Source of the DNA: Parasedimentitalea marina
GTDB taxonomy: Bacteria > Pseudomonadota > Alphaproteobacteria > Rhodobacterales > Rhodobacteraceae
DNA: 64,000 bases
Direction of reading: 5' to 3'
NCBI RefSeq assembly: GCF_004006175.1
Contig: NZ_CP033223.1
Span: 46,567 to 110,566 of the forward strand
In this document: positions 21,233 through 61,251 of the stretch, in pieces
Layout: every line of letters starts with the position of its first letter
How positions within the stretch are numbered: the stretch's first letter is position 1
Program-made: the position numbers and the translations under genes
Notes under the pieces: model-generated
Seen by the model: only the letters and a program-made list of their open reading frames with translations
Databases searched by the model: none
What the model was told of the DNA's origin: nothing

Positions 21233-24087
21233 ATGGCCTTCAAGCTGACCGATTACGAAGCCTATGATTTTGCCAACCGCCGCCACATTGGCCCCAGCCC
21301 GCGTGAAATGGCTGATATGTTGCAGGTCATCGGCTTCAAAACCCTGGACGAGTTGATCGACGCGACGGTCCCGGCCTCGATCCGCCAGACCGAAGCCCTG
21401 GACTGGGGCCCGGCCATGACCGAGCGCGACGCCCTGTTCCACATGAAAGAGGTCGCCAGCAAAAACAAGGTGCTGACCTCGCTGATCGGCCAGGGCTATT
21501 ACGGCACCTCCACCCCGGCGCCGATCCTGCGCAACATCCTGGAAAACCCGGCCTGGTACACCGCCTATACGCCCTATCAGCCAGAAATCTCGCAGGGCAG
21601 GCTTGAGGCGCTGTTGAACTTCCAGACCATGGTCAGCGATCTGACCGGCATGGACATCGCCAATGCCTCGCTGCTGGACGAGGCCACCGCCGCCGCCGAG
21701 GCCATGGCGATGACCAAACGCAGCAGCCGCTCCAAGGCCAATAACGCCGCCTTCTTTGTTGATGAAAACTGCCACCCGCAGACCATCGCGGTGATCAAAA
21801 CCCGTGCCGCGCCGCTGGGTGTCGAGGTGATCGTGGCCAACCCGGATGATCTGGAACCCGAAACCGTCTTTGGCGCCATCTTCCAGTATCCCGGCACCTA
21901 TGGCCATGTGCGCGACTTCACCGCTGAAATCACCGCGCTGCACGCCAACAAAGGTCTGGCCATTGTCGCCGCCGACATTCTGTCGCTGGCGCTGCTGAAA
22001 TCCCCCGGTGAAATGGGCGCCGATATTGCCATCGGATCGACCCAGCGTTTTGGCGTGCCGATGGGCTATGGCGGTCCCCACGCCGCCTATATGGCCACCA
22101 CGGATAAGCTCAAGCGCGCCATGCCGGGCCGCATCATTGGTGTCTCGGTCGACAGCCACGGCAACAAGGCCTACCGGCTGGCGCTGCAAACCCGCGAACA
22201 GCATATTCGCCGTGAAAAGGCCAATTCCAACGTCTGCACCGCCCAGGCGCTGCTGGCGGTGATGGCCTCGATGTATGCGGTCTATCACGGTCCCGACGGC
22301 ATCAAGGCGATCGCCCAGTCGGTGCACCGCAAGACCTCACGTCTGGCCGCCACCTCGAAGAGCACGGCTACACCGTCGAGCCCGAGGTGTTCTTTGACAC
22401 CATCACGGTTGACGTGGGTCCGCTGCAGAAAACCGTGATGGAGGCGGCGGTGGCCCGCGGCATCAACCTGCGCAAGGTCGGGGCCACGGCCGTGGGCGTC
22501 TCCCTTGACGAACAGACCCGCCCGGAAACCATCGAGGCGGTCTGGGGCGCCTTTGGCATCGACAAACAGGACGACAGTCAGGCCAACCGCGACTATCGCC
22601 TGCCCGAGCACGCCCTGCGCGACAGTGCCTATCTGACCCACCCGATTTTCCACAAAAACCGGGCCGAGGCCGAAATCACCCGCTACATGCGCCGTCTTGC
22701 GGATCGCGATCTGGCGCTGGACCGCTCGATGATCCCGCTGGGGTCCTGCACCATGAAGCTGAACGCCACCGTCGAGATGATCCCGGTCACCTGGCCCGAG
22801 TTCAGCAACCTGCACCCCTTTGTGCCGCAGGATCAGGCGCAGGGTTACACCCAGATGATCGACGATCTGAACGATAAACTGTGTCAGATCACCGGCTATG
22901 ACGCGATCAGCCAGCAGCCCAACTCGGGCGCGCAGGGTGAATATGCCGGCCTTTTGACCATCCGCAACTATCACGCGGCCCGGGGTCAGGCGGGGCGCAA
23001 TGTCTGCCTGATCCCCACCTCGGCGCATGGCACCAACCCGGCCACCGCGCAGATGGTGGGCTACAAGGTGGTGCCCATCAAGGCGGATGCGCACGGCAAT
23101 ATCGACATCGCCGATTTCCGCGCCAAGGCTGAATTGCACTCGGACAGGCTGGCCGCCTGCATGATCACCTATCCCTCGACCCACGGCGTGTTTGAGGAAA
23201 CCGTGCAGGAGGTCTGCCAGATCACCCATGATCACGGCGGTCAGGTCTATATCGATGGCGCCAATATGAACGCCATGGTCGGTCTGGCCCAGCCCGGTAA
23301 GATCGGCGGCGATGTCAGCCACCTGAACCTGCATAAAACCTTCTGCATTCCCCACGGCGGCGGCGGCCCCGGCATGGGCCCGATCGGGGTGAAATCCCAC
23401 CTGACCGCGCACCTGCCCGGCCACCCTGAATACGGCTCGGCGGTGGGTCCGGTCTCGGCGGCGCCCTTTGGCTCGCCCTCGATCCTGCCGGTCAGCTGGG
23501 CCTATATCCTGCTGATGGGCGGCGCCGGTCTGACCCAGGCCACCAAGGTCGCCATCCTGAACGCCAACTATATCGCCGCCCGCCTGAAAGACGCCTACGG
23601 TGTCCTCTACACCTCCAAAACCGGCCGCGTCGCCCATGAGTGCATTCTCGACACCCGCCCCCTGGCCGATGCGGGCAATGTCACCGTGGATGACATCGCC
23701 AAACGTCTGGTCGACAGCGGTTTCCACGCCCCGACCATGTCCTGGCCGGTGGCCGGCACCCTGATGGTGGAACCCACCGAGTCCGAGCCCAAGGACGAGC
23801 TGGACCGGTTCTGCGACGCCATGCTGTCGATCCGCGCCGAGGCCCAGGATGTCATCGACGGCAAGATCGACGCCGACAACAACCCGCTGAAAAACGCACC
23901 CCACACGGTGCGCGATCTGGTCGGCGACTGGGACCGCCCCTACAGCCGCGAGACCGCCTGTTTCCCGCCCGGATCATTGGGCGTCGACAAATACTGGTCC
24001 CCCGTCAACCGCGTCGACAACGCCTACGGTGACCGAAACCTCATCTGCACATGCCCCCCAATGACTGACTACCAAGACGAAACTTAA
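21233..24087 (+). pseudogene. gcvP: Glycine decarboxylase P protein, interrupted by a -1 frameshift
   Basis: Two overlapping frames together cover a full-length PLP-dependent glycine decarboxylase (about 951 residues if corrected). The first, 21233-22438, is in frame until about 22350 ([11 protein letters not shown]); the second carries on with [16 protein letters not shown] in the +1 frame and runs to 24087. One C appears lost in GCCGCCACC around 22348-22352: inserting it would give [15 protein letters not shown]. The downstream half contains the PLP lysine motif [14 protein letters not shown]. If real, the uninterrupted N-terminal product lacks the cofactor site and the enzyme is dead. A sequencing or assembly error at a short C run is a serious alternative, since both halves look well conserved. 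Confidence 0.85.
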
Positions 24088-24133: not shown

Positions 24134-25114
24134 TCAGGAGCAGTTCGCCATCCGCTGTCCAAGATCCAACAACAAGCTCGGGTAAAACTGCGGACCCAGT
24201 GGAATGTCTGTTCCCATCGGGTCAATCACTGCTGTTTTGGCCCCGGTGCCATCCATGACTGTCGCAACCAATCCCGGATTGAACTGCGGTTCTGAAAACA
24301 CGCAGCTCACCCCCAGTTCCGCTACCGTTCCTCGCACTTCGGCCAGCCGTGCCGGACTGGGTGACGATGCATCGCTGAGTGAAATTGCCGCCAATGCCGA
24401 CAGATCAAAACTGGTCTCAAAATACTGATAGGCATCGTGAAAAACCACAAATCCACCCTCACGCAGCGGCGCCAGCCCGGCGTCAATGATGACCACAGCC
24501 TGATCTATCTCTGCCCTGCCAGCCGCAGCGTTTGCACGGTATGCCTCGGCGTTATCCGGATCAAACTGCGCAAGTTCAGTGGCCGCCAGGTCCAGCCATA
24601 GCTTACCATTCTCTGGCGCCAACCAAGCATGCGGATCTACACCTTCATGGCCATGATCATCGTGCGCATCTCCGTCATGTCCGTCTTCTTGATGTTCGCT
24701 CTCTTCGTGCCCGTCTTCTCCATGATCATCGTCGTGACCGGCAAACCGCGCACCTTCGCGAAACGGCAGAACCGTCACGCCGTCGCTGTGCAGCAACTCT
24801 ATCACCTTTGCACCTGTCGCTAGATTGTCTACCGATCCCTCCAGCCAGGGGGTCAACGTCTCGCCCATCCAAAACACAAAATCTGCCCGGCTCAACGCCC
24901 TCGCCTCGGACGGGCGCATCGAATAGCCATGCGGCGAAGCGCCTGGCTGCACCACCAGATCCGGAGTGCCTACCCCTTGCATCACTCGGGCTACCAGCCC
25001 ATGCACCGGTGCGATATCGGTGGCCACAAGCGGCACATCTGCCTGCCCCGCACCCGTGAATGTCAAGCTGGCCACGGCTGCAACAAAGGATATCATTTGG
25101 GATGATCGTAACAT
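24134..25114 (-). CDS. znuA: Zinc ABC transporter periplasmic binding protein
   Basis: A 326-residue cluster-9 metal-binding protein. A signal peptide (residues 1-25, ending GAGQA) is followed by zinc ligands H38 (APVHGL), H62 (SPHGYS) and H162 (DPHAWL), and the His/Asp/Glu-rich loop at 127-158, the hallmark of ZnuA rather than manganese-binding relatives. A Cys pair (C256 region and the last residues) is consistent with the ZnuA disulphide. It is divergent from zur-znuC-znuB and the spacer carries a candidate Zur site. Confidence 0.95.
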   Translation of the reverse strand: MLRSSQMISFVAAVASLTFTGAGQADVPLVATDIAPVHGLVARVMQGVGTPDLVVQPGASPHGYSMRPSEARALSRADFVFWMGETLTPWLEGSVDNLATGAKVIELLHSDGVTVLPFREGARFAGHDDDHGEDGHEESEHQEDGHDGDAHDDHGHEGVDPHAWLAPENGKLWLDLAATELAQFDPDNAEAYRANAAAGRAEIDQAVVIIDAGLAPLREGGFVVFHDAYQYFETSFDLSALAAISLSDASSPSPARLAEVRGTVAELGVSCVFSEPQFNPGLVATVMDGTGAKTAVIDPMGTDIPLGPQFYPSLLLDLGQRMANCS

Positions 25115-25133
25115 AGGATGCCTCGTGTGATCT

Positions 25134-25172
25134 TATAACATTACATGGCTTGTTAAATGTCATACTATAACA
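25134..25172. promoter_or_regulatory. Candidate Zur-binding region
   Basis: The divergent spacer between znuA and zur holds the repeated element TATAACAT and an imperfect palindrome with TGTTA at 25151-25155 and TAACA at 25168-25172. Zur boxes of alphaproteobacteria are AT-rich palindromes with GTTAT...ATAAC halves, which this resembles. Zinc-dependent repression of both units is expected by analogy. Confidence 0.55.
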
Positions 25173-25213
25173 TATCAAGCGATAAATGACCTGATCCAGC
25201 GGAGACGTGACAA

Positions 25214-25696
25214 ATGGGTTCTCTTGGCTTTACGACCCACGACCATGCAAACTGCATCAACGACTGCGTTGCGGCCGCCGACCAGCAGTGCCTAGAACAG
25301 GGGCTGCAACTGACCCCTGTGCGCCGCCGGGTTTTGGAAATCCTGCTGCAACAGCACCAGTCGCTTGGGGCCTACGACATCCTCGACCTCCTGCGCAGCG
25401 AGGGCCTGGGGTCTCAGCCGCCTGTCGCCTACCGCGCACTGGATTTTTTGGTCAAACACGGCTTCGCCCACAAGATTGAGCGTCTGAATGCCTTTATCGC
25501 CTGCACCCATCCTGGCGAAAATCATGCCCCCATTTTCATGATCTGTCGTCAATGTAATGCCGTCGCCGAAACCCATACCAACCTGAACGACGGCCAGCTT
25601 GGTCAATTGGCGCAGGACGCAGGATTTCAGATCGAAGGCACTGTAGTCGAGGTAGAAGGCCTGTGCCCCAAATGTCAGGACCACCCCACACCATGA
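25214..25696 (+). CDS. zur: Zinc uptake regulator (Fur family)
   Basis: A 160-residue Fur-family repressor. The winged helix spans about 25-95 (LTPVRRRVLEILLQQHQSLGAYDILDLL, PVAYRALDFLVKHGFAHKIE). Structural zinc cysteines are C112-x2-C115 (CRQCNA) and C153-x2-C156 (CPKCQDH). Placement between znuA and znuCB identifies it as Zur rather than Fur. The stop overlaps the znuC start, so its own expression is tied to the transporter. Confidence 0.93.
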   Translation: MGSLGFTTHDHANCINDCVAAADQQCLEQGLQLTPVRRRVLEILLQQHQSLGAYDILDLLRSEGLGSQPPVAYRALDFLVKHGFAHKIERLNAFIACTHPGENHAPIFMICRQCNAVAETHTNLNDGQLGQLAQDAGFQIEGTVVEVEGLCPKCQDHPTP

Positions 25697-26439
25697 GCCT
25701 GGTCACGTTGCAGGATCTGACCATCCGTCACAGCGGCAACCCCGTTCTGACGAATGTCAATTTCACCATCACCAAAGGCGAGATCGTCACCTTGGTTGGG
25801 CCAAACGGCTCGGGAAAGTCCACGCTTTTGCGGGCTGTCATTGGCGCCTTGCGACCAAATTCCGGCCAGGTGATCCGCGCCCCTGGTCTGCGCATCGGTT
25901 ACGTTCCGCAGAAGCTGCATATCGACCCCACTTTGCCCCTGACCGTGCGCCGTTTTCTGAGCCTGCCGACACGTGTTCCAAATTCCATGGCAGATCAAGC
26001 CCTGGACCAAGCTGGGGCTGGCCCGCTGGCAAATCGGCAGATGTCCCGTCTGTCTGGCGGACAATTTCAACGGGTCCTGCTGGCCCGGGCCTTGCTGTGC
26101 AATCCACAATTGTTGATCCTGGACGAGGCGACGCAGGGGCTGGATCAACCGGGATCCGCCGCATTTTATCAACAGATCGAAACCGTCCGCCAGCAGCTGG
26201 GTTGCGCGGTCTTGATGGTCAGCCATGAATTGCACGTGGTTATGGCGGCCTCAGATCGGGTGATCTGCCTGAATGGCCACATCTGCTGCGAAGGCGAGCC
26301 CGAACATGTCGCCTCGGCCCCCGAATACCGCGCCCTGTTTGGCACCGGAACCCAGGGGGCACTGGCCCTGTACCGGCACGAGCATAACCATTCGCATGAC
26401 AGCGACTGCGATCATCACAGTCACGAGGCCGCAGAATGA
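25693..26439 (+). CDS. znuC: Zinc ABC transporter ATPase
   Basis: A 248-residue ATPase. Walker A is GPNGSGKST, the signature LSGGQFQRVLLARA, Walker B LLILDEATQGLD, and switch His VSHELHVV. The C terminus carries a His-rich tail (HEHNHSHDSDCDHHSHE) common in ZnuC. Start 25693 overlaps the zur TGA by four bases; an upstream start would extend into zur. The stop overlaps znuB. Confidence 0.94.
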   Translation: MSLVTLQDLTIRHSGNPVLTNVNFTITKGEIVTLVGPNGSGKSTLLRAVIGALRPNSGQVIRAPGLRIGYVPQKLHIDPTLPLTVRRFLSLPTRVPNSMADQALDQAGAGPLANRQMSRLSGGQFQRVLLARALLCNPQLLILDEATQGLDQPGSAAFYQQIETVRQQLGCAVLMVSHELHVVMAASDRVICLNGHICCEGEPEHVASAPEYRALFGTGTQGALALYRHEHNHSHDSDCDHHSHEAAE

Positions 26440-27242
26440 TTTTGTTTGACAGTTTTCTGATTTATGCCGCTTTGGCCGGCCTTGGCGTTGCCATCGCTGC
26501 GGCCCCTTTGGGCTGTTTCGTCGTCTGGCGCCGGATGGCCTATTTTGGCGACGCCACTGCGCATGCCTCGATCCTTGGCGTGGCGCTGGCCCTTAGTTTT
26601 GAAATATCGATCTTTGCCGGAGTACTGATTGTGGCGCTTTTGATGGCCGCCACCGTCTCAACGCTCAGCAATCGCGGCTATGCCATGGACACTATTTTGG
26701 GTGTCCTCGCCCATTCAGCGCTGGCTTTTGGGCTTGTGGCAGTTTCCTTTTTGCAAGGTGTGCGGATCGATCTGATGGCCTATCTGTTTGGCGAAATACT
26801 GGCCGTTGGACTGCTGGACCTGACTGTCATCTGGGCCGGAGCCTTGCTGGTTCTGTCCTTGCTGTGGTGGCGCTGGTCGGCCTTGCTGACGGCGACGCTA
26901 AACCCGGATCTGGCTTATGCCGCAGGCATCGACCCCCGCCGCGAGCAACTGGTCCTGACGTTGGCGCTGGCGCTGGTGGTTGCGGTGGCCATCAAAGTTG
27001 TCGGCGTGTTGCTGATTTCCGCAATGTTGATTATCCCCGCTGCCACGGCCCGTCCCTTTGCCGGTACGCCGGAACGCATGGCGGTGATGGCCGCCGCGAT
27101 TGGCGGATTATCTGCTCTTGGTGGGTTGCAGCTGGCCTTTGCATTTGACACGCCGACCGGGCCGACAATCGTATGCCTGGCCGCCTTGCTGTTTACCCTG
27201 TCCAGTGTGACTACCCTCTTATTTCGCGGCCCCTCTGCCTAA
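26436..27242 (+). CDS. znuB: Zinc ABC transporter permease
   Basis: A 268-residue ABC-3 family membrane protein with about eight hydrophobic segments. Family patterns are GCFVVWRRMAYFGDATAHASILGVAL near the N terminus and KVVGVLLISAMLIIPAATARPFA. It overlaps znuC (ATGA) and completes the zinc importer. It converges on the histidine kinase gene with only 18 bases between stops. Confidence 0.94.
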   Translation: MILFDSFLIYAALAGLGVAIAAAPLGCFVVWRRMAYFGDATAHASILGVALALSFEISIFAGVLIVALLMAATVSTLSNRGYAMDTILGVLAHSALAFGLVAVSFLQGVRIDLMAYLFGEILAVGLLDLTVIWAGALLVLSLLWWRWSALLTATLNPDLAYAAGIDPRREQLVLTLALALVVAVAIKVVGVLLISAMLIIPAATARPFAGTPERMAVMAAAIGGLSALGGLQLAFAFDTPTGPTIVCLAALLFTLSSVTTLLFRGPSA

Positions 27243-27260: not shown

Positions 27261-29543
27261 TTAGGTCCCGGTCCGCAACACTTCACCGGTTTCGGGAAGG
27301 CTCTCGATGGCGCCCAACAGGGCCTTCTTGTTGATGGGTTTGCTTAGAAATCCGTCCATCCCCGCCTTCAGGCATTTCTGTTTGTCGGCGGGCATTGCGT
27401 TGGCTGTCAGCGCAATAATCGGGCAATGAGCACGCTGTTCCGTCGCCTCCAACTCGCGAATGATCGCCGTGGCTTCCAGCCCATCCATTTCTGGCATCAT
27501 CATATCCATCAAAATCACGTCAGGGCAGGAGTCACAGTACATTTGCACGGCTTCAATTCCATTGGCTGCAACCAGGATGTCTATCGGAGCATCCTTTAGC
27601 ATTTTGCACACCACCAATTGATTGGTCTTATTGTCCTCTGCCAGCAGGACCCGCAGTGTCTTGGTTCTTTGGGCCTTATCCTCAAGGTCAGACCCAGCGC
27701 CTGAGTGCAGTGGGGTCAGATGCATCGACCGACTGATCACACCGTGCAGTTGTGCTGACCGTACCGGTTTCAGGGCCAGTTCGCAGGGGCTAAGTGTCTG
27801 TTTTGTTGTAGCATCCAACGATTGTTCGACCGACGATAGGATCACCAGAGGCAAGGTTTCATGGTCTGGAATGGCCCGGATCCGGCAGGCCAGTTCAAGA
27901 CCGTTCATACCTGGCATTTGGTAGTCCTGTAGCACCAGATCAAATGCCCCGGTGCGAACACCAGCTGCCGCCAAAACCTCCAGCGCCTCGGCGCCAGATG
28001 ACGCCAGTGTGCAGTCCATGCCCCAGGTTGTCAGACGCTCAAACAGGATCCTACGGTTCACCTCAAGGTCATCGACCACCAAAACTCTCAACCCTTTCAA
28101 GTCCAGAGAACTTGACCAGACAGGTTCACATCTCTCGTCGCTAACCAACAATGGCAATTGCATTGTGAACACCGAGCCGGTTCCCGGGTCTGATCGGGCC
28201 GAAATTTTACCCCCCATCAATCGCAACAATCGGGTTGAGATTGCCAAGCCCAGCCCCGTGCCTTCAAAGTTCCGTGTTGCAGCCCCGTCGACCTGCTCAA
28301 ATGCATTAAAAATGTGCTCAATCTTGTCTTCGGGAATACCAATGCCGGTGTCGGTGACGGATATGTCCAAATCACAAACATCACCATTCATGATCCCTGA
28401 CACATCAATAAAGACATATCCCTCCAACGTGAATTTGACCGCGTTGCCAACAATATTGGTGATCACCTGACGGATTCGGCCCACGTCTCCTTCAAAGACT
28501 GTTGGAAGGTCAGGATCAAAGCGCAAAGTGACCTCGACACCCTTGCTTGCGGCATTTGGTGACAACAACGTCACCACATCTTCCATAGAAGTCTGAAGAT
28601 TAAAGGTGCACGATTCCAGTTTTAATTTACCCGATTCAATTTTCGAGAAATTGAGGATATCGTTGATGATCGTCAAAAGCGCCGCACCGGATGTGGAAAT
28701 GGTCTCGGCGTACATTTTTTGATCTTCGTCGAGGTCGGTTTCGAGGATCAGCTCGGCCATACCAATCACCCCATTCATTGGGGTCCGTATTTCATGAGAC
28801 ATATTGGCCAGAAATTCAGATTTGGCCCCATTGGCCACTTCTGCCGATTCACGCGCCTGTTCCAGGGCAAACTCGCGCTCGTCTCGCTCAACAAATGTGT
28901 CCTCCATCACCCCAACCGAAAAATTCAGCGCAGCGTATTCTCGAGAGGCGTACCACGGCAATCTCATCGATGGTCGTTTCAGGCCCGAAATCACGTCTGA
29001 CATCCGCTGATGGATCATCTGCAATGGCCGCATCGCCAGAATGTGAACAAGGTATAAAACAAGCGCAGACAGTGCTGCGACTGACAGCACCGTCCAGAGA
29101 ATGGTTTGACGCACCTTTTGTTGCAACATGAGTTGACCTTCGCTGGTGGACCACTTGACCACCATGTGCGCAAAAACCATGCCGTCCCATTCAATCGGCC
29201 GGTCATAAATCACATAATTCCTTGGCTCTTCCGTTGCCAAGGCCTGGCCCGCTGCAATGACTTTCCTATCTTCACTCAAGATCTGTATTGCCAGTATTTT
29301 TGGATTGCGCGCGATCGCCTCGTGCAGGCCCGTTTCAAGAACCGGCACATCCTCGACGATGATAGCATCAAGCATCAAGCCGCCAAGCAAAGAGACCGTG
29401 AGAGCCGCCTGTGCATCCAGTTGTTGCGTCATGCGCTGGGTCTCGTAGCGCCGTGCCAGGTCACCGACAACCAGGGCGACCAAAGACGCCGCGAGTGCCA
29501 TCGACACTACAATCTGGAACAAGATACTCGTACGCTTCATCAA
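27261..29543 (-). CDS. Hybrid sensor histidine kinase with two receiver domains
   Basis: A 760-residue membrane kinase. TM1 is at about 9-29 and TM2 at 148-170, enclosing a periplasmic sensor of about 120 residues. The HisKA H-box is [16 protein letters not shown] with H250. The ATPase domain has N-box [16 protein letters not shown] and [12 protein letters not shown]1 (485-605) has D540 and the acidic pair D491/D492; REC2 (629-750) has D680 in [13 protein letters not shown]. There is no Hpt domain, so a separate phosphotransfer protein is expected. It is co-oriented with, and 18 bases after, the PhnD-like gene, which may present its ligand. Confidence 0.9.
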
Positions 29544-29561: not shown

Positions 29562-30461
29562 TTAAAACAAACGACTTTGGTCCATCGCCTGGCGTACAAA
29601 ATTGTAATCGTCGTCAGTTCCTTCCAAAAACCCATTTTTGAGAATCTGCCGCACGGTTTCTTGGTTGTCCGACGCCAGCATGACACGGCGCATCGCAGCC
29701 ACAATCCTGGGCGAAACTTCAGCACTGGCCAGCCAGGGCTTGGTCACATTGTCGAATGACAGCAGCACCCGGATAGGAACGCCTTTGGCCACCAGCTTCT
29801 TGTAAGTGCTTTCTTTTAGCGCACCGGCTGTAAACCGGCCCGCGCCAACCGCTTCGCCAACCAGATCATGACGGCCAAGGTAATCAAAACCTTGAAGCTC
29901 GGCACTGCTGATCCCTGCCTCTAGCAAATGGGACTGCGCCAGATACCGGCCAATCGTGGACAGTTCATCCCCAAAAGCAAAACTCTGCCCGGACAATTGT
30001 TCCAGTGAATGAATGTCGCTGTCCGCATGAACCACGATCACACCGTTAAAACGCTTTCCACCATTTTTGGCTTCCATCGCCACCAGTTGAATCTCTGAAT
30101 TTCGGTCCATGACGTGCACATATGAGGCCGGACCAAAGCGCGCGAAGTCCACTTCACTGGTTGCCAAATGGTCAATTCCAGCGTCGTATTCCTTGGCGAT
30201 TTTCATCTTTATGGTGACCGGTTCATCCAGGTCCACGCTCATACGGTCGGCCAGGAAAGTTAAAAATGGGCGGTACTTTCGAACCGTGTCAGTCGGCTTA
30301 TCGGCAGCATAGGTTCCAAACGTCAGTGTCACGTCCGCCTGCGCGGCCATTGGCAAGGCAACAAGCCAGCCGACCATGGCCACAATTCCCAGTTGAGCGA
30401 CACAACGTGGTACAGGCAGGTACCGACTGACTATTCGAAACATAAACAAAACAGAACTCAT
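29562..30461 (-). CDS. PhnD-like periplasmic binding protein
   Basis: A 299-residue protein of the phosphate/phosphite/phosphonate-binding family. The signal segment is hydrophobic (VAQLGIVAMVGWLVALPMAAQA) with cleavage near AQADV. Mature features are LTFGTYAADKPTDTVRKYRPFLTFLAD, VDFARFGPASYVHV, GQSFAFGDELSTIGRYLAQS and the C-terminal ARFTAGALKEST-like segment. Start 30461 follows GAGGA at 30469-30473; a longer in-frame start is less well placed. No ABC permease or ATPase accompanies it, only the hybrid kinase, so it probably serves signalling rather than uptake. Confidence 0.85.
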   Translation of the reverse strand: MSSVLFMFRIVSRYLPVPRCVAQLGIVAMVGWLVALPMAAQADVTLTFGTYAADKPTDTVRKYRPFLTFLADRMSVDLDEPVTIKMKIAKEYDAGIDHLATSEVDFARFGPASYVHVMDRNSEIQLVAMEAKNGGKRFNGVIVVHADSDIHSLEQLSGQSFAFGDELSTIGRYLAQSHLLEAGISSAELQGFDYLGRHDLVGEAVGAGRFTAGALKESTYKKLVAKGVPIRVLLSFDNVTKPWLASAEVSPRIVAAMRRVMLASDNQETVRQILKNGFLEGTDDDYNFVRQAMDQSRLF

Positions 30462-30620
30462 AACATAATCCTCAGCTAAAAGGTCCAACACACGATCCGG
30501 TTTCTCCCAATACTATTCTGGTCACGGCGATCAAAAGATAAGGTTAACCCAGTTCGGTATTTCCATCTAATTTGTCGATTTTATTGAGTTTTATTGGGAC
30601 ATTAACCAAACAGTAACGTT

Positions 30621-30688: not shown

Positions 30689-33600
30689 GTGACAAGCTAC
30701 ATTCCCCCTCACTTTCTGCATTGGCCTATCAGGATTGACCGTACACTTACTACGTGTGTAGCCGCCATATTATTGCTGCCCAACACCGCGCTGGCGATCC
30801 CCTCACCTGAATTGGTAATCGGGTCCGTCTCGTCCCTGGGCCAAGTTTTCGCTGTTGGGTTTGCGATGCTGTCGGGTGTCGGGGCGATTGTCGCGACAAA
30901 ATTGGGATTTTCGCCGAAAAAAGGCGACACAGCATGGCGTTACCCGGTTCGGTTGATCACAATTCTGTCGATGTTCGCCGTCGCACTACTTGCTTTGAAC
31001 TACTGGCAATACACGAAACAGGGCGCTGCAGAATTAGCGCGGTTGCAGGCCACATTGGTTCGCCCGGCGCAATTTTCTGGCACCACAATTAAGGACGCCA
31101 CACTCAAGGAAATCAGCTTTTCAAACCAAGAAAACCACCCGCTGGCGATCTCAACCAGCGAAGCCGCTGCTTTGCTACACAACGGCAGTACATCGTTCTA
31201 CGACGTCCGTGAAACCGGCGAAAACGCCATGGGCACCCTTCCTGGTGCCACCCACATCCGGTTCCCTGATTTCCTGCAGTCACAACCGGTGACAGGTGAT
31301 CAACCGGTCATTTTATTCTGTCATAACGGCAATCGCAGCTCGGAAACCTGCGAGAAACTGGCCGCCATGGGCATCGACTGCCGGTTCATTTCCGGCGGTA
31401 TCGAGAAATGGATCGTCGAAGGAAACGGGTTTAGCGACACCGAAGTCAAATCACTGTCCGACCTGCGTGCCATCCCAGATTACTCAAACAAGGATATCTT
31501 GCTCGGCACGGATGATTTCAAATCACTGCTCGACACCGAAGACCTGCAGATCGTCGACACCCGTTACCCCGGTGACTTTGACACCGGCCACCTGCCGGGG
31601 GCCGCGAATATCCCCATTCGGGCCTTGCCAACAGACGAGTTAATGCGCCGTATTGATGCGCTGGACCCCAGCAAACCCACCATCGCCGCCTGCTATGACC
31701 GCCGCAGTTGCTTCATGAGCCAGGTGCTGGGGCTGGAACTGGCTCAAAAGGGCTTTGATTTCCGCGGCCGCTACACCCTCCCCTGGGAGTTCTTCATACC
31801 CCCGGCGCCAAAGCCTCATATTCAGGATTGGCAAGCCGCCCAACAGCAGGGTCTATGGGACAAGGCGGTCTCGGCCGTTGCCACAGGGTTGCTGTGGGTG
31901 CATGCTCGCAGCCACATCCTGCTGGGTCTGTTGAGTCTGTCACTGCTGACCCGTCTGCTGGTGCTGCCGGTAGCGTTGAAATCTGAGCGCGACCAAATCA
32001 TCACCGCCGAGACCGCTGACGCGCTGAAGACGCTCAAAAATGATCTGGCAAATGATCCCGTCCGCAGGGCGCGCGCGGTGCAGGCGTTCAACGCTGACAA
32101 GGGCCTGACCCCAATGCGCAACCTGACGGCACTGCTGTTCTTGCCAGTGATGATGATCGGCGTCTCTGCCGCACAAATGGCCAGCTCGGCCTTGCAGATC
32201 CCGTTCCTGTGGATGTCTGATCTGGGTCAACCGGACCCTACCTACATATTGCCGGTGCTGTTCACCGCACTGGCTGGCCTCTATCTGGTCTGGGCCGTCG
32301 CCAAAACGCGCCGCCAGATCCTGTTGTGGCTTGGCCTTGGGTTGCCTGCACTGTTTGCCATGGTCTTTGCCCTGGGGGCTGCTGCCAATGCCTATCTGTG
32401 CTGCAGCCTGACGCTGCTGCTGGCGCAACGGGCCTATGTCACCGGCCTGTTTACCCGCCTGCGCCGGTCTGTTGCAGAGCGGGCGCATAAATTCACGCTG
32501 TGCAGATTGCCACGCGGTGTGATCCCCTTGGGCATGGTTGAGGAGCTGGAAACCTCGGGCAACAAAGCCCTGCGCCTGTCGATCCTGAAAACCGCCGGCC
32601 TGCCGGTGCCCGGCGGCGTGGTGATCCGCTCGGATGCGATTGCTGACCTGCGGCAAATGTCAGAAGCCCAGCGAGACATTTTCGCGGCGCAGATCTGGCG
32701 TCTTGCTGGTGAAACCCCCTGTGCAGTCCGCAGCTCAGCCAGCAACGAAGACGGAGCGGATCAAAGCTTTGCAGGTGTATTCGACTCGGTGCTGGACGTA
32801 ACGGCCGATACCATGCGCGCCGCGCTGGAGCAGGTTATCGCCAGTTTCACATCCGAGCGCGCAGCCAGCTATGATACCAGCGCCGGGGATGAAAACGCCG
32901 GTAATATTCTGGTGCAGCAGATGGTGCAGGCGGACTATGCCGGTGTGATGTTTACCCAAGATCCCACCGCCCCGGGTATGGTCATGATCGAATGGATCAA
33001 TGGCTGCGGCGACGACCTGGTGTCCGCTCGCGTCACACCCACCTCGCTGCGCTTTGGCCGATACACCGGCCTGCCGGCCTATGCGGATCAGGATCAAACG
33101 CTGGATCTGGCACCACTGCTGAACCTCGGCCGCCAGATCGAACAGGTTTTTGGCTGCCCACAGGATGTGGAATGGGCCTATGCCGATGGTCAGTTTCAAA
33201 TCGTCCAAAGCCGCGACATCACTACGTTGAACCTTGGCTCCGAACAAGAAAAAGCCCGGCTGGCCGAATGGCGCGGCCTGTTGGATCGCTTTGGTGATGC
33301 GGATCCGGATCAGCCGATTTTGGAACAGGACGAAATGTCCGAAGTCCTGCCGCGACCAACGCCCCTGTCGTTCTCACTGATGGGCCGCATGTGGTCGCCG
33401 GGTGGCAGCGTCGATCTGGCCTGCCGTCAGCTGGGCGTGCCCTATGGTCTGCCGGAAGGCCCCGATGGCCATATGGTCAACCTGTTTGGTAAAACCTATG
33501 TTGATGTGGCTCTAAAGCTGGGCATGACGCTGAATGTCAGTGCCTCCAAGGCCAAGCAGTTGCGCAAACAGGCCCGCCCCATGATCGCGCAGTTCCGTTC

Positions 33601-34720
33601 CGATGTGATACCGGATCTGGCCGACCAATTGGCGCTGTGGCAGGCCGTGGATTATACCGCCCTGCCCCTGCGCAAGCTGATACAAGCCATCGACACCCTG
33701 CAACAGATGCTGGTGCAGGATATCTATGTCGAGGCCGAAAAGATCAACATTCTGGCAGGGTTCACCATGGGCGAGGCCCGTGTGGCAGCCCAGAATGACC
33801 CCGCCCTGCGCAACCGGCTGATGCAGGCCACCCTGCCCCATGCGCCTTCCTCCCTGATCGCCAGCTGCAAGGGAAAGAAGGCCCAAACCAAGGCGTTGCA
33901 GCTGATGGGTCACCGGTCCATCTTTGACTATGAACTCAGCTCACCCCGCTATATCGAGGCCCCTTCCCTGTTGTGGTCCCTGCTGGACGCCACCACCGAC
34001 CCAAACCCCACGACCCCGCCCCCGGCAAACCTGCCCGGCGCGCTCAGCGAGGTACTGGAACTGGCTCTGGCCTTTCAGGATCTTAAGGAACAAGCCAAAC
34101 ACGAGGCTCTGCGCGTGGTGGCCGAAATTCGCCGCGCCGTACTCGCACTGGGCCGGGTCACCAAACTGGACGCACTGATCTTTCACCTGACCCTGGACGA
34201 GGTGCTAAGCACAGATTGGGGACAGCCCGCCGCCCGCCAAATCGCACAGGCCCGCCTGGATCAGGCCGAGCTGCGCCGGACATCCGCCCCCACCGCGGTC
34301 AGCCTGTCCCTGCGTGACTGCGAGATGCTGTCACTGGGCAAGCAGGCACAGGCCAGTGATAGCAGCCTTGGCGGCACATGTGTTTCAGGGGATGGCAGTG
34401 TCACCGGTCGGGTGTTCTGGGTCGAGGACGAAAGCGCCATTGATCCGGCACTATTTGACGGTTTCCGCGACGGCGACATTCTGGTCTGCCGGATGATCAA
34501 CCCGGCCTGGCTGCCATGGGTGCAACGCTCAGGCGCTGTCCTGTCCGAGGTCGGCGGCTGGCTCAGCCATATGGCCATTGTCGCCCGCGAGAAAGACATT
34601 CTGATGCTGGTGGCCTGCAAGGGCTTGGATCAATTGGAGGCCACCAGCCGGGTCAAAGTGTCAAGTGACGGCACCATAGAAATGTCCCAGACCGCCGAAC
34701 TAAAAGTCGTTTCGGCCTGA
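30689..34720 (+). CDS. Fusion: tandem rhodanese, YidC/Oxa1-like membrane domain and dikinase (rifampin-phosphotransferase-like)
   Basis: A 1343-residue chimera. Residues 20-37 look like a signal or anchor (AILLLPNTALA), with further helices at about 47-70 and 90-107. Rhodanese 1 (about 150-235) has C211 in CHNGNRSS; rhodanese 2 (about 265-360) has C335 in CYDRRSC. Residues of about 405-590 resemble YidC/Oxa1: LLTRLLVLPVALKSERDQ (R422), the charged NDPVRRARAVQAFNADKGLTP loop, then PFLWMSDLGQPDPTYILPVL. From about 623 comes a PPDK-type ATP-binding domain (GNKALRL, AVRSSASNEDG, ILVQQMVQADYAGVMFTQDP), a helical middle, and a swivel domain with H1294 in GGWLSHMAIVARE. No PEP-binding barrel follows, as in rifampin phosphotransferases. 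Topology would place the rhodaneses in the periplasm and the dikinase in the cytoplasm. The GTG start is the best available but lacks a strong ribosome site. Confidence 0.85.
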   Translation: MTSYIPPHFLHWPIRIDRTLTTCVAAILLLPNTALAIPSPELVIGSVSSLGQVFAVGFAMLSGVGAIVATKLGFSPKKGDTAWRYPVRLITILSMFAVALLALNYWQYTKQGAAELARLQATLVRPAQFSGTTIKDATLKEISFSNQENHPLAISTSEAAALLHNGSTSFYDVRETGENAMGTLPGATHIRFPDFLQSQPVTGDQPVILFCHNGNRSSETCEKLAAMGIDCRFISGGIEKWIVEGNGFSDTEVKSLSDLRAIPDYSNKDILLGTDDFKSLLDTEDLQIVDTRYPGDFDTGHLPGAANIPIRALPTDELMRRIDALDPSKPTIAACYDRRSCFMSQVLGLELAQKGFDFRGRYTLPWEFFIPPAPKPHIQDWQAAQQQGLWDKAVSAVATGLLWVHARSHILLGLLSLSLLTRLLVLPVALKSERDQIITAETADALKTLKNDLANDPVRRARAVQAFNADKGLTPMRNLTALLFLPVMMIGVSAAQMASSALQIPFLWMSDLGQPDPTYILPVLFTALAGLYLVWAVAKTRRQILLWLGLGLPALFAMVFALGAAANAYLCCSLTLLLAQRAYVTGLFTRLRRSVAERAHKFTLCRLPRGVIPLGMVEELETSGNKALRLSILKTAGLPVPGGVVIRSDAIADLRQMSEAQRDIFAAQIWRLAGETPCAVRSSASNEDGADQSFAGVFDSVLDVTADTMRAALEQVIASFTSERAASYDTSAGDENAGNILVQQMVQADYAGVMFTQDPTAPGMVMIEWINGCGDDLVSARVTPTSLRFGRYTGLPAYADQDQTLDLAPLLNLGRQIEQVFGCPQDVEWAYADGQFQIVQSRDITTLNLGSEQEKARLAEWRGLLDRFGDADPDQPILEQDEMSEVLPRPTPLSFSLMGRMWSPGGSVDLACRQLGVPYGLPEGPDGHMVNLFGKTYVDVALKLGMTLNVSASKAKQLRKQARPMIAQFRSDVIPDLADQLALWQAVDYTALPLRKLIQAIDTLQQMLVQDIYVEAEKINILAGFTMGEARVAAQNDPALRNRLMQATLPHAPSSLIASCKGKKAQTKALQLMGHRSIFDYELSSPRYIEAPSLLWSLLDATTDPNPTTPPPANLPGALSEVLELALAFQDLKEQAKHEALRVVAEIRRAVLALGRVTKLDALIFHLTLDEVLSTDWGQPAARQIAQARLDQAELRRTSAPTAVSLSLRDCEMLSLGKQAQASDSSLGGTCVSGDGSVTGRVFWVEDESAIDPALFDGFRDGDILVCRMINPAWLPWVQRSGAVLSEVGGWLSHMAIVAREKDILMLVACKGLDQLEATSRVKVSSDGTIEMSQTAELKVVSA

Positions 34721-40939: not shown

Positions 40940-41623
40940 TCAAGACACCACCACAATATCAGACACATCCGGATCCACTTCGCGGCAGGCCTCCAGCAGA
41001 CGCGGTGCCAGATGGGCCATGACATAGGTGGCGTGGAACCGGCTGGGGGCCAATAGCGTCAACCGCCCCCCTGCCCTGCCCTGCCGGGAGAGGCTTTGAA
41101 TCCATGCGGTGTAACTGGCCGGGTCTTCGGCATGCATCAACCCTTTGGTCAGGCTCCACTCGCTGCCGTCTGACAGATCCGGCGCCGGGGCTGGACTGCT
41201 GACCGGCAGCGGCACCACATTGCTGGGCCCGGTATCATCCCCATTGAGGCGCTGTTCAAAATCCGGACCCACAGCGGCCCAGATACCCTGAGTGTCGCGC
41301 AGAATGCGCTCCAGATTGATCCCGTATTCGCTGACCCTGCCCCGGTAGCCCTGCCGTTTGACCACCAGCCATCCCAGGGCACGCAGCTTGGCCATCTCGC
41401 GTTTCACTGTGCGTTCGTCCACATGCCACATGCGCGCCATCTCGCGTTGACCCACGGCCAGCTCATCCCGGGACCAGTTGTAACGGGCGGTGATCAAAGT
41501 CATGAATCGCAACACCAACCGCTGCTTTCCTTTGTCCAAGGCTAAGGCGTGCGTTCCCAGCGCAGTGAGGATATCATATTTGATAACAGACGCATTGCGC
41601 CCGGCTGGTTTACTGGCAAGCAT
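40940..41623 (-). CDS. DnaA-like plasmid replication initiator
   Basis: A 227-residue protein. The N-terminal half has winged-helix character (RDELAVGQREMARMWHVDERTVKREMAKLRALGWLVV). The C terminus (about 155-227) resembles the DnaA N-terminal domain: WSLTKGLMHAEDPASYTAWI, LTLLAPSRFHATYVMAHLAPRLLEAC. This matches the DnaA-like replication initiators of Rhodobacterales extrachromosomal elements, which sit next to parAB as here. It lacks AAA+ and DNA-binding domain IV of true DnaA. The ATG at 41623 has a GAGGG site. Divergent from parA across the origin region. Confidence 0.83.
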   Translation of the reverse strand: MLASKPAGRNASVIKYDILTALGTHALALDKGKQRLVLRFMTLITARYNWSRDELAVGQREMARMWHVDERTVKREMAKLRALGWLVVKRQGYRGRVSEYGINLERILRDTQGIWAAVGPDFEQRLNGDDTGPSNVVPLPVSSPAPAPDLSDGSEWSLTKGLMHAEDPASYTAWIQSLSRQGRAGGRLTLLAPSRFHATYVMAHLAPRLLEACREVDPDVSDIVVVS

Positions 41624-41875
41624 CTCTGCCCTCGTCGTTCACGTCCTGCACCAGGCAGGTCTGTACCTCAGATGTCCCGGCTTCACTGGCCCGGATCATA
41701 GTAGACGGTTTTACCTGGGTTGCGGTCTGGATAGTGTTTGGAACCGGACCAACTCAGCGCTTTTCGTCTTTGTTGTCTGATTTGCGTCCTTTTGCTCGAT
41801 TCTGTCAAGTCCTCTGTAATTTGGACCAGATCCTTAAACTCTATTTCAAATGAAATTTTGGTATTAAAGGTATTG

Positions 41876-41949
41876 GGGGACATCCAGTCTGTCCCCTATT
41901 AGCGCAAAAATGTCCCCCAATATACAGTATGCGGTCAAATCCTGTCCCC
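41876..41949. repeat. Cluster of TGTCCCC half-sites
   Basis: Four copies of the half-palindrome: inverted at 41876-41882, direct at 41890-41896, 41911-41917 and 41943-41949. Start-to-start distances of 21 and 32 bases equal about two and three helical turns, so bound proteins would sit on one face. They match half of the 16-bp palindrome at 42042. Iteron-like binding by Rep or ParB is inferred. Confidence 0.6.
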
Positions 41950-42041
41950 CTAAATAGACCCCATTTATCAAGCGTTTCGAATCGTTTTAGTCGCTGCCGT
42001 TCGAATCGGTATGAGCCGTAGGATCCTGCTATACAGGGCTG

Positions 42042-42057
42042 TGTCCCCGCGGGGACA
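42042..42057. repeat. Candidate parS palindrome 1 (TGTCCCCGCGGGGACA)
   Basis: Perfect 16-bp palindrome in the parA leader, identical to three copies inside parA and parB. Placement upstream of a parAB operon fits a ParB-binding centromere site, and perhaps an operator. Confidence 0.7.
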
Positions 42058-42177
42058 GCTCCAGTGCAGATACGATAATAGCTTTTGCGTTTTTTGCAAA
42101 TTCGCCGTAAATAGCCAGTAAGGCGGAATTTGCGTCCACTTAAAAACGCAAACGTCGAGCAGAGATGAGGACGACAT

Positions 42178-43482
42178 ATGTTTACCCACCAAGACCTGTC
42201 GCAGATGCAGGCCCAATCGCTCAAGATGCAAAGCTGGATCAGGCAGCAGACTTTCTCGCCCGAGATGGAGAAGAAGCTGCGCAGGTTTTCCAGCTGGGAG
42301 GTGGCCGAACTGATATTTAAGGCCAACCAATCCACCCTGCGCGGCCGTCTTGCTGCCGACCCGAGCCTGCCGCAGGGCTTGGTCGAGGCCGACGGGCGTC
42401 AGCGCTGGTATTCCCTGGAAGAGATCAACGAGCTGCGCCGCCGTATTAAGGTGAACCGCAAGTCGCTGATGCCGGACCGTCCGGCAGGTAAACGGGCGCT
42501 GCGGGTGGCGATCTCAAACTTCAAAGGCGGCGCCGGTAAATCTACTGTGGCGCTGCACTTTGCCCATGCGGCCGCGCTGGACGGCTACCGGGTGCTCTGC
42601 GTTGATTTTGATCCGCAGGCGACGCTGTCCCATTCCATGGGTCTGAACGACGTTACCGAGGACTATACGGTCTGGGGCATCATGGCCCGCGATCTGGTCC
42701 GGGAAACGGAACGGATGAACACCGCCTCGCAGGGGGCCGAATCCGGCGCCGCCCTGCCCCACCGTCGCCTGCCCGAAGCGATCACCGACATGGGGCTGCA
42801 GGATCTGCGGGTCAGCGATTTCATCAAATCCACCAGCTGGCCCACCATCGATCTGATCCCCAGTTGTGCCAATGCCGCCTTTGTTGAATTCGCCAGCGCC
42901 CAGTATCGCCACCTCAATCCCGAGTGGTCGTTCTTTGCGGCGGTGTCGCGCTACCTGGATCAGATCCCGGCGGAAGATTACGACATGATGATCTTTGACT
43001 GCCCGCCTGCCATTGGCTACCAATCGATGAACGCGGTCTTTGCGGCGGACATGCTGTATATCCCTTCGGGGCCCGGCTACTGGGAATATGATTCCACCAC
43101 CTCCTTTATCGGTCAGCTGTCCGAGGCGCTCGAGGATCTGTCGGCGTTTAACGGCGTTGTCCCCGCGGGGACAGCCACCCTGCCCAAGGTGTTTCAGGAT
43201 GTGCGGTTCCTGCTGACGCGTTATGAATCGGGCAATGACCTGCACCGGGCCATGCGCGATGCCTTTGGCAAAGTCTTTGGCGAGCGTCTGGCGGATCACC
43301 CTATTGAAATGACCCGCGCGGTGGAACAATCCGGCCGGTTCCTCAGCTCGATATACGAGATCGACTATCGCGACATGACCCGCGAAACTTGGCGGCGGGC
43401 GCGGGCGTCATTTGACCAGGCCTACGATGAATTCAAGGCCAACGCCCTCTTGGCCTGGGATGGGCTGGAGGATGAAACATGA
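42178..43482 (+). CDS. parA: Plasmid partition ATPase ParA
   Basis: A 434-residue partition ATPase. The N-terminal part has a helix-turn-helix-like segment (SSWEVAELIFKANQSTLRGRLA), typical of larger plasmid ParA proteins that also autoregulate. Deviant Walker A is KGGAGKST (116-123); FDPQATLSHSMGL and MIFDCPPAIGY follow. A copy of the 16-bp palindrome is inside the gene at 43158-43173, encoding V-V-P-A-G-T. GAGG precedes the ATG. The stop overlaps parB (ATGA). Confidence 0.93.
   Translation: MFTHQDLSQMQAQSLKMQSWIRQQTFSPEMEKKLRRFSSWEVAELIFKANQSTLRGRLAADPSLPQGLVEADGRQRWYSLEEINELRRRIKVNRKSLMPDRPAGKRALRVAISNFKGGAGKSTVALHFAHAAALDGYRVLCVDFDPQATLSHSMGLNDVTEDYTVWGIMARDLVRETERMNTASQGAESGAALPHRRLPEAITDMGLQDLRVSDFIKSTSWPTIDLIPSCANAAFVEFASAQYRHLNPEWSFFAAVSRYLDQIPAEDYDMMIFDCPPAIGYQSMNAVFAADMLYIPSGPGYWEYDSTTSFIGQLSEALEDLSAFNGVVPAGTATLPKVFQDVRFLLTRYESGNDLHRAMRDAFGKVFGERLADHPIEMTRAVEQSGRFLSSIYEIDYRDMTRETWRRARASFDQAYDEFKANALLAWDGLEDET
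43158..43173. repeat. Candidate parS palindrome 2, inside parA
   Basis: Identical 16-bp palindrome within parA. The codons are GTC CCC GCG GGG ACA, the same register as in the two parB copies, giving the peptide VPAGT each time. Confidence 0.7.
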
Positions 43483-44594
43483 GCAAGCGTCGCGTCTTTG
43501 ACATCAACTTCCCGTCCGATCCTCCCAAGCCTGATGCCACGTCTGCCCCTACTGTCCCCGCGGGGACAGATGTCACACCGCCGCTGGAAACGCGGCGTGG
43601 TCCTATGGCGACGGCGATCTCGGAAAATGCCGATGCGCTGCGGGTGCGGGCTGATGCCGAGCAGAAAATCCGCGCCGAGAATGACCGGCTGGCGCATGAA
43701 TTTGTCCGCCTGAAAAAACTGGGTCTGGTGGTCGATCGCATTTCGCTGGACCTGATCCAGACCAGCAAACTGACCCGTGATCGCAGCCAGACCCGTGACC
43801 CGGAGCTGGACGAATTGATCGCCTCGATCCGCACCCTTGGCCTGTCCAATCCCATCCGGGTTGAACAGGATGGCGACGGCTATCAACTGGTTCAGGGGTT
43901 TCGCCGTCTGTCGGCCTATCGCGCCCTATACGCCGAAACCGGTGATGACCTGTATGCCAGCATTCCCGCTGGTCTGGTGGCGCAGGGGGAAACCCTGCAG
44001 GGTCTGTACCGTCGTATGGTCGACGAAAACCTGGTGCGCCGGGATATCTCATTTGCGGAAATGGCGCAGCTCGCCCTGTCTTATGTGCAGGATGATGCGA
44101 CCGAGGCCGGGACGTTGGAGCAAGCAGTCAGCATGCTCTATGCCTCGACCGGGCGTCAGAAACGCAGCTATGTGCGCCACTTTGCGGAACTGCTGGAATG
44201 GCTCGGGGCTGATCTTAGGTTTGCTGAAATGATCCCACGGGCCCTGGGTTTGGATCTAAAGAAACGTCTGGCTGATGATGGCCAGCAACAGGCCGCACTG
44301 AGGCGCCGACTGCAACAGGAACAACCGCAAACAGCAGAACAGGAATTGGCGATTTTGCGTGCGGCGCTGGAACGAGTAACGCCGCGCGCGCCCAAATCTC
44401 CTGCCCGCGTCGATGGTGCAAAAACCACCCTGCGCTGTACTGTCCCCGCGGGGACAGTCCGCTGTCTGGCCCGTAACGGCCGTATCGAAATGGCAATGGA
44501 GAAAGACTTCTCGACCATTGATCAGCGTCGGCTTGAGGGCGCAATTGCCGCGTTCTTTGAGGTTCTCGACAGCGAGACCGAGGACGACACCTAG
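43479..44594 (+). CDS. parB: Partition protein ParB
   Basis: A 371-residue ParB/RepB-type DNA-binding protein. The ParB/Srx-like domain spans about 85-160 (ELDELIASIRTLGLSNPIRVEQ, YQLVQGFRRLSAYRAL, then MVDENLVRRDISFAEMAQLAL). A central helical region with HTH character follows (160-260). Two palindromes lie inside the gene, at 43553 and 44441; the encoded VPAGT stretches are in poorly conserved linkers, as expected if DNA sequence is what is selected. Translationally coupled to parA. Confidence 0.92.
   Translation: MSKRRVFDINFPSDPPKPDATSAPTVPAGTDVTPPLETRRGPMATAISENADALRVRADAEQKIRAENDRLAHEFVRLKKLGLVVDRISLDLIQTSKLTRDRSQTRDPELDELIASIRTLGLSNPIRVEQDGDGYQLVQGFRRLSAYRALYAETGDDLYASIPAGLVAQGETLQGLYRRMVDENLVRRDISFAEMAQLALSYVQDDATEAGTLEQAVSMLYASTGRQKRSYVRHFAELLEWLGADLRFAEMIPRALGLDLKKRLADDGQQQAALRRRLQQEQPQTAEQELAILRAALERVTPRAPKSPARVDGAKTTLRCTVPAGTVRCLARNGRIEMAMEKDFSTIDQRRLEGAIAAFFEVLDSETEDDT
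43553..43568. repeat. Candidate parS palindrome 3, inside parB
   Basis: Same 16-bp palindrome near the 5-prime end of parB; flanking C and G extend it to 18 bp. Encodes T-V-P-A-G-T in the N-terminal linker. Confidence 0.7.
44441..44456. repeat. Candidate parS palindrome 4, inside parB
   Basis: Same 16-bp palindrome near the 3-prime end of parB; flanks AC and GT extend the symmetry to 20 bp, the longest of the four. Encodes C-T-V-P-A-G-T-V. Confidence 0.7.
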
Positions 44595-44781
44595 CGGTCA
44601 TTTCGCGAAATTCAGGCTCTAATCGGCGGGTTAGAGCCTGACCAAAGCCCTGTTAAGGGTGATGCATATGCAAAAATGGCGGGGGTGTTGCATTAGAATA
44701 GCCGCTGCGTGCGCTACTGTCACCCCATGGAAATGGCTTACCGCTACCCTGTCGGGGTTCCCAGATGCCAAGGCCCGACAA

Positions 44782-46755: not shown

Positions 46756-46934
46756 GATGAGACCTCTTTTCTAAAATGTAGATCAACCTCTGACGAGAAA
46801 AGTCAGAGCACTATTTTAATTGTTCGCTCGTATACTAACAGGAAACTTGCGCCCCAAGGCAAGGAGCGCAATACTTTACCGATGAATTTCCGGCAACTTC
46901 TGTTGCCATTGAATATTTGCTTGGAGTTTTGAGC

Positions 46935-53094: not shown

Positions 53095-53269
53095 ATCTAG
53101 GCACCTACAAAAACTGTGAAACCAATTGACTTTAAGAAAACGATAAGGCTCACTTGTGGTCAAGTTATTGTTTATAGTTTCGCATTCCGGACCCCCTAAC
53201 GGCGCCGCAAGCCAGCTCCGAAATGTGGTGGTATGGGTAAGGAAGACCAAATTTCAGGAGGTCGATCAT

Positions 53270-54316: not shown

Positions 54317-54386
54317 AATATGGCCGCCCGCATCCCAATAGTGCTCAGGGTAGGTGGCACAATGATTGACGAGTAAGGAGTAAAAG

Positions 54387-54902: not shown

Positions 54903-54913
54903 GGAGGGTAGAC

Positions 54914-56410: not shown

Positions 56411-56477
56411 TCATTTCTGTCATCAGGCTAATCACGTGATGCTCGTAACGAGTTCTTGAATTTGAAAGGAAAAGAAA

Positions 56478-56978: not shown

Positions 56979-56990
56979 TTCAACACTATT

Positions 56991-57023
56991 GCTCCGAGCG
57001 CTTTGGCGCTCGGAGCTATTTTT
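56991..57023 (+). terminator. Rho-independent terminator after hcp
   Basis: Arms GCTCCGAGCGC (56991-57001) and GCGCTCGGAGC (57006-57016) with loop TTTG, followed by TATTTTT. The stem is perfect. Partial read-through would set a high Hcp level relative to the distal tss genes. Confidence 0.9.
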
Positions 57024-57055
57024 AATCAGTTGATTACGTGACGGAGCACTGTGTG

Positions 57056-58349: not shown

Positions 58350-58350
58350 C

Positions 58351-61250: not shown

Positions 61251-61251
61251 C

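Follow-up and report, generated by a model that had tools for sequence, protein, structure and literature searches.

The T locus

The 64,000-nucleotide stretch of Parasedimentitalea marina DNA analyzed here (contig NZ_CP033223.1, positions 46,567 to 110,566; hereafter the window) carries an open reading frame (ORF) for a 1343-residue protein, labeled T throughout, that joins two rhodanese domains, a membrane core resembling YidC/Oxa1 and a dikinase resembling rifampin phosphotransferase (RPH) in a single chain (Table 1). T is part of a module with two genes on the opposite strand, which encode a PhnD-like periplasmic binding protein and a hybrid histidine kinase, and this sensor pair is the best clue to its function. 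The sequence-only reading that first singled out T had overlooked it. The architecture of T and its conservation make it almost certain that we are looking at a real design, which joins rhodaneses, predicted to lie outside, to a YidC-shaped part in the membrane and an ATP-driven phosphotransfer enzyme, predicted to lie inside.

Table 1. Coordinates of T, its parts and the associated genes and elements in the window
Feature	Position	Strand	Remarks
Whole T gene, 1343 aa	30689..34720	+	signal/transmembrane (TM) segments, two rhodaneses, YidC-like core, RPH-like dikinase
Hydrophobic N-terminus, res 19-37, signal-peptide-like	30743..30799	+	ends beside conserved AIPSPELVIGS motif; putative cleavage
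Two TM-like helices, res 47-71 and 87-108, N-terminal of the rhodaneses	30827..31012	+
Rhodanese 1, res 156-242	31154..31414	+	active loop C211-HNGNRS; C211 = 31319-31321
Rhodanese 2, about res 270-369	31496..31795	+	loop C335-YDRRSC; C335 = 31691-31693
YidC/Oxa1-like membrane core, about res 385-600	31841..32488	+	R422 = 31952-31954
PPDK_N-type ATP-grasp domain, about res 612-850	32522..33238	+	K626 (32564), R681 (32729), E828, Q840, R842
Central RPH-like substrate domain, about res 858-1224	33260..34360	+	K1133-E1134 aligned to RPH R666-E667
Swivel phosphohistidine domain, about res 1225-1330	34361..34678	+	H1294 = 34568-34570, aligned to RPH His825
TTAA-N7-GTAA element, CtrA-box-like, upstream of T	30602..30616	+
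PhnD-like periplasmic binding protein (PF12974), divergent neighbor of T	29562..30491	-
Hybrid histidine kinase (HisKA-HATPase-REC-REC)	27261..29543	-	no HPt and no DNA-binding domain found with Pfam

The sequence-only reading that drew attention to this ORF had proposed two rhodaneses with C211 and C335, a YidC part, and a dikinase with its ATP, substrate and histidine domains in that order. A Pfam search and structure models bore this out, matching rhodaneses, YidC and RPH, the last along the whole length of the dikinase. The models were made as two separate halves, with low confidence around residues 31-53 and 80-83 in the region of the TM-like helices; the rhodanese/YidC half was searched with Foldseek and VIA, and the kinase half with VIA. 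Databases name T, among the matches listed, as a phosphoenolpyruvate (PEP)/pyruvate-binding protein, a YidC/Oxa1 insertase, a rifampicin phosphotransferase or a composite of these. No paper treating T was found in the open-licence literature, searched by titles and the starts of abstracts among the matches listed; within that scope the earlier claim of novelty held, and the family, whose members are very large proteins of marine bacteria, appears to be undescribed.

Probably one old fusion, conserved nearly end to end

The same four Pfam domains recur in 119 of the best 120 of 595 database matches, which speaks against an assembly fusion. A second database listing gave 120 of 600, and both listings were scored from limited candidate sets. 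For finer comparison we kept 80 of 81 matches, making 79 loci. These loci and the window hold 82 T ORFs, of which the 71 that exceed 1230 aa were aligned and shorter or split ones dropped; A2 and A3 each hold 56 of 60 selected sequences. Every one of the 71 sequences retains C211, R216, C335, R338, R339 and C341 in the rhodaneses, R422, K431 and D435, and K626, R681, E828, Q840, R842, H1075 and R1076. H1294 is kept in 70, with one gap, as are C221 and C231 (70/71 each), and E1015 in only 63. Pairwise distances computed for five domain segments across this alignment correlate at 0.90-0.95, which indicates that the segments evolved together, as one old fusion predicts.

A rival reading takes the frame for an assembly or annotation fusion of separate genes. 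Some database entries do look truncated or frame-shifted (among the 10 read), and T is split into two ORFs in L067 and L089, which shows that single genomes can carry breaks. Nevertheless, T is present nearly end to end in 8/8 sampled members of the genus, and in 80 of 81 plasmid records a single stretch spans 80% or more of the query. These conserved full-length copies refute an artifactual frame, and we regard that explanation as having a negligible chance of being right.

No convincing rhodanese-YidC protein lacking the kinase emerged when residues 1-604 were used as query, among the 10 of 77 matches that were read, as protein without their DNA. By reading, the frame appears to be lost just inside the kinase in P0165, P0170 and P0176, at the YidC-kinase junction in P0167, within the YidC part in P0200 and P0225, and in rhodanese 1 and again in YidC in P0224. 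P0186, which stops shortly into the kinase, may be truncated or frame-shifted, and P0219 and P0227 have a short N-terminus with YidC and kinase retained.

Rhodaneses, a YidC-like core and their predicted topology

Both rhodaneses of T have the expected fold, score above the Pfam cut-off and keep the active-site cysteine throughout the alignment. The model of the following segment has the YidC/Oxa1 core fold, and its R422 aligns with the membrane arginine of E. coli YidC. The Pfam family 60KD_IMP scores 31.5 bits by protein and 36.4 bits by genome search (curated cut-off 35), and matches at E<=1e-3 in 12/12 T members.

The hydrophobic segments of T lie at about residues 19-37, 47-71, 87-108, 405-428, 475-502, 520-538, 544-560 and 566-586. 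Under the positive-inside rule, loop charges can be read for orientation: the predicted-inside loops hold 3, 8, 3 and 7 Lys/Arg, and the short predicted-outside loops hold 0. These charges place the rhodaneses outside and the dikinase inside, a prediction that agrees with the topology proposed earlier.

T might instead insert or assemble membrane proteins in some specialised way, with its enzyme domains acting on those clients; the YidC fold, with a membrane arginine conserved in 71/71 sequences, speaks for this. A housekeeping role was rejected, as the same genome has a separate canonical YidC (E 9.1e-60). That copy also counts against a specialised insertase, as do the small-molecule type of the T kinase and the gene neighborhoods: beyond the sensor pair, only broad ABC-ATPase matches are listed as common to close and distant loci. 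We consider an insertase improbable, the least probable of the functional readings weighed here.

The dikinase half

The order of ATP-grasp, substrate and swivel-histidine domains is that of RPH-like small-molecule dikinases. In the excerpts consulted of PMC4844700, K22, R117, T136, H825 and the 666/667 pair are tied to RPH catalysis; RPH K22, R117, H825 and R666-E667 align with K626, R681, H1294 and K1133-E1134 of T (positions hand-counted). With the lysine and arginine present in 71/71 sequences and the histidine in 70/71, the kinase half is, judged from sequence, likely to be an active dikinase.

Its substrate could be a toxin. T might be a protective enzyme whose YidC-like groove catches membrane-soluble toxic compounds so that they can be phosphorylated as RPH does rifampin. 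The score of T against NCBIfam RIF_Ptrans_rph (133.7 bits) is far below the curated cut-off of 999, and such an enzyme would leave the periplasmic rhodaneses and the sensor pair without a clear role. We therefore think protection unlikely, though a little less so than insertion.

A sensor pair tied to T

The binding protein and hybrid kinase lie beside T in 61/79 loci. The pair is upstream and divergent in 53 of these, and in the other 8 it is downstream and convergent. The strands agree throughout the 61, with at most 711 bp between T and the nearer match and at most 238 bp between the members of the pair. The remaining 18 loci comprise one with a binding protein at the contig edge, four with a different binding protein and 13 with none in view. 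A whole-genome search found the binding protein elsewhere in 11 of the genomes of these 13, beside the kinase in 11/11. In L061 the start of the T gene shares a contig with the pair, so T is probably split between contigs. Across 295 genomes of the family, one per genus, T occurs in 9, the binding protein in 10 and both in 9.

The four loci with a different binding protein are instructive. The genomes of L074, L078, L083 and L085 lack the orthologous binding protein and have one of PBP_like_2 type beside T instead (assigned by similarity only in L078). A HAMP-PAS-GGDEF-EAL receptor adjoins this substitute in L078 and L083, and part of one does in L085; the L074 sequence ends too soon to show such a neighbor. 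In the T tree the four fall in one clade (support 0.999) with L072, which has a PhnD-type pair, and L081. So even where the partners belong to another family, T has a binding protein beside it and, as far as the sequence shows, a membrane signaling protein. Together with the rearranged gene orders and the unlinked cases, this argues for a functional tie rather than mere shared neighborhood, and we hold such a tie to be very likely.

Two observations touch the binding protein and its surroundings. A match to it in a metagenome-assembled genome (MAG) labeled Ramlibacter appears, by reading, to be a phosphonate-transporter protein followed by an ABC ATPase gene, and it was set aside as not orthologous. 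A znu-like zinc-uptake cluster with a Fur-family gene (24134-27242) adjoins the module in most Phaeobacter/Leisingera-type loci, and none was seen near it in distant loci.

Distribution and upstream region

T is present in 8/8 sampled genomes of the genus; among the 53 others sampled with them, G026 alone has a nearly full-length copy. With residues 105-612 as query in even samples it was found in 9/295 family, 2/385 class and 3/398 phylum genomes, each count including the window's own. Named loci belong mostly to the Roseobacter group, and some MAGs are labeled Hyphomicrobiales, Afifella, Ramlibacter and others. L080, labeled Nocardioides marinus, has T at 72% identity with Roseobacter-type synteny, and its label is probably wrong; P0111 and P0187, named for a sea spider, look like contamination. 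PLSDB holds 81 plasmid records with T, 59 from Phaeobacter and 17 from Leisingera, and the module sits on a plasmid of a cultured strain, Phaeobacter inhibens 2.10, where T is PGA2_RS18840 and the other two genes are PGA2_RS18835 and PGA2_RS18830. The window itself has a plasmid-type block at 40940-45675 (a DnaA_N-match protein, a ParA-type ATPase, a ParB_N protein, then a similar ORF), and these families occur near T in many Phaeobacter and Leisingera loci.

The element upstream of T in the window resembles the CtrA consensus, given as TTAA-N7-TTAAC in the excerpts consulted (PMC4046655, PMC6180460). Of 54 non-redundant loci, 25 have the pattern TTAAC-N6-[GT]TAA ahead of T, where 60 shuffles gave a mean of 0.2 and never more than 1, but it was chosen by eye after the sequences had been read, and the regions are related, so this CtrA-like box is a lead only. 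(Regions belonging to proteins at least 85% alike, and those short of upstream DNA, had been removed.) Three Pho box patterns were not found in 73 regions upstream of T.

An alternative is a signaling role, in which the membrane bundle would respond to the state of the periplasmic rhodaneses or to the binding protein with its ligand, and the phosphohistidine or the kinase half would talk to the hybrid kinase. The conserved partner of T is a sensor pair, and its kinase has two receivers but carries no DNA-binding output itself. Nor is a DNA-binding response regulator annotated within 14 kb of the pair in P. inhibens 2.10 or within 6 kb in P. psychrophila. The distant loci with another binding protein, two with a membrane GGDEF-EAL protein and a third with part of one, and the CtrA-like box point the same way. 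Nevertheless, the substrate domain of T is complete and the catalytic residues of RPH are retained, which exceeds what a pure signal carrier needs, and we know of no protein of this type that phosphorylates receivers. A signaling role is on balance unlikely, and still the strongest of the rivals.

What the pair may sense

The closest sequence match of the binding protein in the PDB is phosphite-binding PtxB (E 1.4e-21), with AioX and ArrX weaker. Y61, Y124, S178, T179, H208 and D209 are identical in 55/55 binding proteins, and 48 of the 55, the window's included, have no cysteine after residue 50. AioX binds arsenite through Cys106, according to the portion available of PMC5908839, and with the AioX-type cysteine missing from these 48 we rejected arsenite sensing. 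PhnD-type domains sense tetrathionate and thiosulfate in TtrS and ThsS (PMC5408782, in part). This precedent and the likeness to PtxB make a small phosphorus or sulfur oxyanion a plausible ligand.

A tentative model

We tentatively propose, as a reading with rather less than an even chance, that T is an ATP-dependent small-molecule dikinase of the inner membrane, and that its domains on the two sides work on a single ligand, the one sensed by the pair. Sequence and structure models support three steps of this proposal. The N-terminal hydrophobic segments and the YidC-type bundle are predicted to keep both rhodaneses periplasmic and the kinase cytosolic. Since the kinase retains the residues that RPH needs, it would be expected to run ATP + X + H2O -> X-P + AMP + Pi through phospho-H1294. 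T also very probably belongs with the PhnD-like protein and the hybrid kinase. Further steps are conjectural. The periplasmic rhodaneses may exchange sulfur, in either direction, with an oxyanion or thiol ligand; this ligand, or a lipid-soluble product, may reach the kinase by way of the YidC-like groove; and phosphorylation may trap or activate it inside, by analogy with what is proposed for HpeHI. The binding protein and kinase could report the same ligand and adjust the response of the cell, perhaps via the CckA-ChpT-CtrA relay.

Several points weigh against this model. The substrate of T and the coupling of sulfur to phosphate chemistry are things we infer, as would be any redox role of the kind that the sequence-only reading suggested. 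With the rhodaneses and the kinase predicted to face different compartments, passage of material from one to the other is conjectural. That every active-site residue is conserved does not prove each to be needed, given that the Mg-ligand change E297A in RPH did not reduce resistance (PMC4844700, from the same excerpts). The co-occurrence of T and the binding protein has P 2.4e-16 if genomes were independent, a figure that overstates the significance because those sampled share ancestry. G834 has the binding-protein/kinase pair without T (L121 808-3908, on a small contig), and L081 and L062 (a 3.5-kb contig) have T with no orthologous binding protein found by whole-genome search. Finally, SoxB occurs in 5/9 genomes with T against 187/295 overall and does not track T; a link to Sox thiosulfate oxidation is not supported, and that role was rejected.

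It is tempting to go further and picture T as a one-chain, ATP-driven group-translocation machine under sensor control, with rhodanese processing, the YidC fold converted from a protein insertase into a conduit for small molecules, and phosphorylation inside. T would then be to ATP what the phosphotransferase system is to PEP. We offer this as a speculation that is more probably wrong than right by a wide margin, about as unlikely as a protective enzyme. More generally, an enzyme with a built-in YidC fold and catalytic domains on either face of the membrane would enlarge the range of functions credited to the Oxa1 superfamily, and small-molecule dikinases would gain a membrane branch.

Other features of the window

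Elsewhere in the window, gcvP (glycine dehydrogenase; 21233-24087) is read as two overlapping ORFs of 401 and 566 aa. Seven ORFs of the gcvP family, counting the second piece from the window, have a median length of 947 aa, and a mutation or a sequencing error appears to have shifted the frame here. Beside the replication block, 46917-48413 encodes a protein of caspase fold (Peptidase_C14, E 9e-40). An argininosuccinate-lyase-like gene (Lyase_1, ASL_C2; 15121-16605) lies among genes that read like sugar ABC transporters. The ORFs at 52255-63960 form what we take to be a type VI secretion cluster, the last presumably a ClpV-like ATPase.

Comparison with known systems

The sensor pair resembles AioXSR, ArxXSR, ArrXSR, TtrS and ThsS in joining a PF12974-type binding protein to a histidine kinase and in keeping the pocket-type Tyr, Ser/Thr and His. 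It differs from AioXSR-type systems in its coupling to T and in the absence of the AioX-type cysteine from 48/55 sequences. PtxB serves an ABC transporter; here the binding protein adjoins a kinase, and the closest genes for transporters are of zinc type.

Like GlpE, YgaP and 6mxv, T has the rhodanese fold with a C-x(4)-R loop in domain 1, and like 6mxv it carries two such domains in tandem. Superposed on 6mxv, however, its two rhodaneses fail to fit as a single unit (13.2 A over 272 columns), and unlike these rhodaneses it has CYDRRSC as the second loop, is fused to YidC and dikinase parts and is predicted to hold its rhodaneses in the periplasm. With YidC/Oxa1 proteins T shares the membrane core fold, the conserved membrane arginine and a cytosolic helical stretch after the core, but a 740-residue kinase follows. 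E. coli YidC has a periplasmic domain of its own, in whose place T has its two rhodaneses, and the groove of known YidC opens to bilayer and cytosol.

In contrast to RPH, HpeHI, CreHI and PpsAB, T sits in the membrane and carries YidC-like and rhodanese parts in the same chain as its dikinase. As far as the excerpts consulted describe them, RPH is one three-domain chain and HpeHI is two chains.

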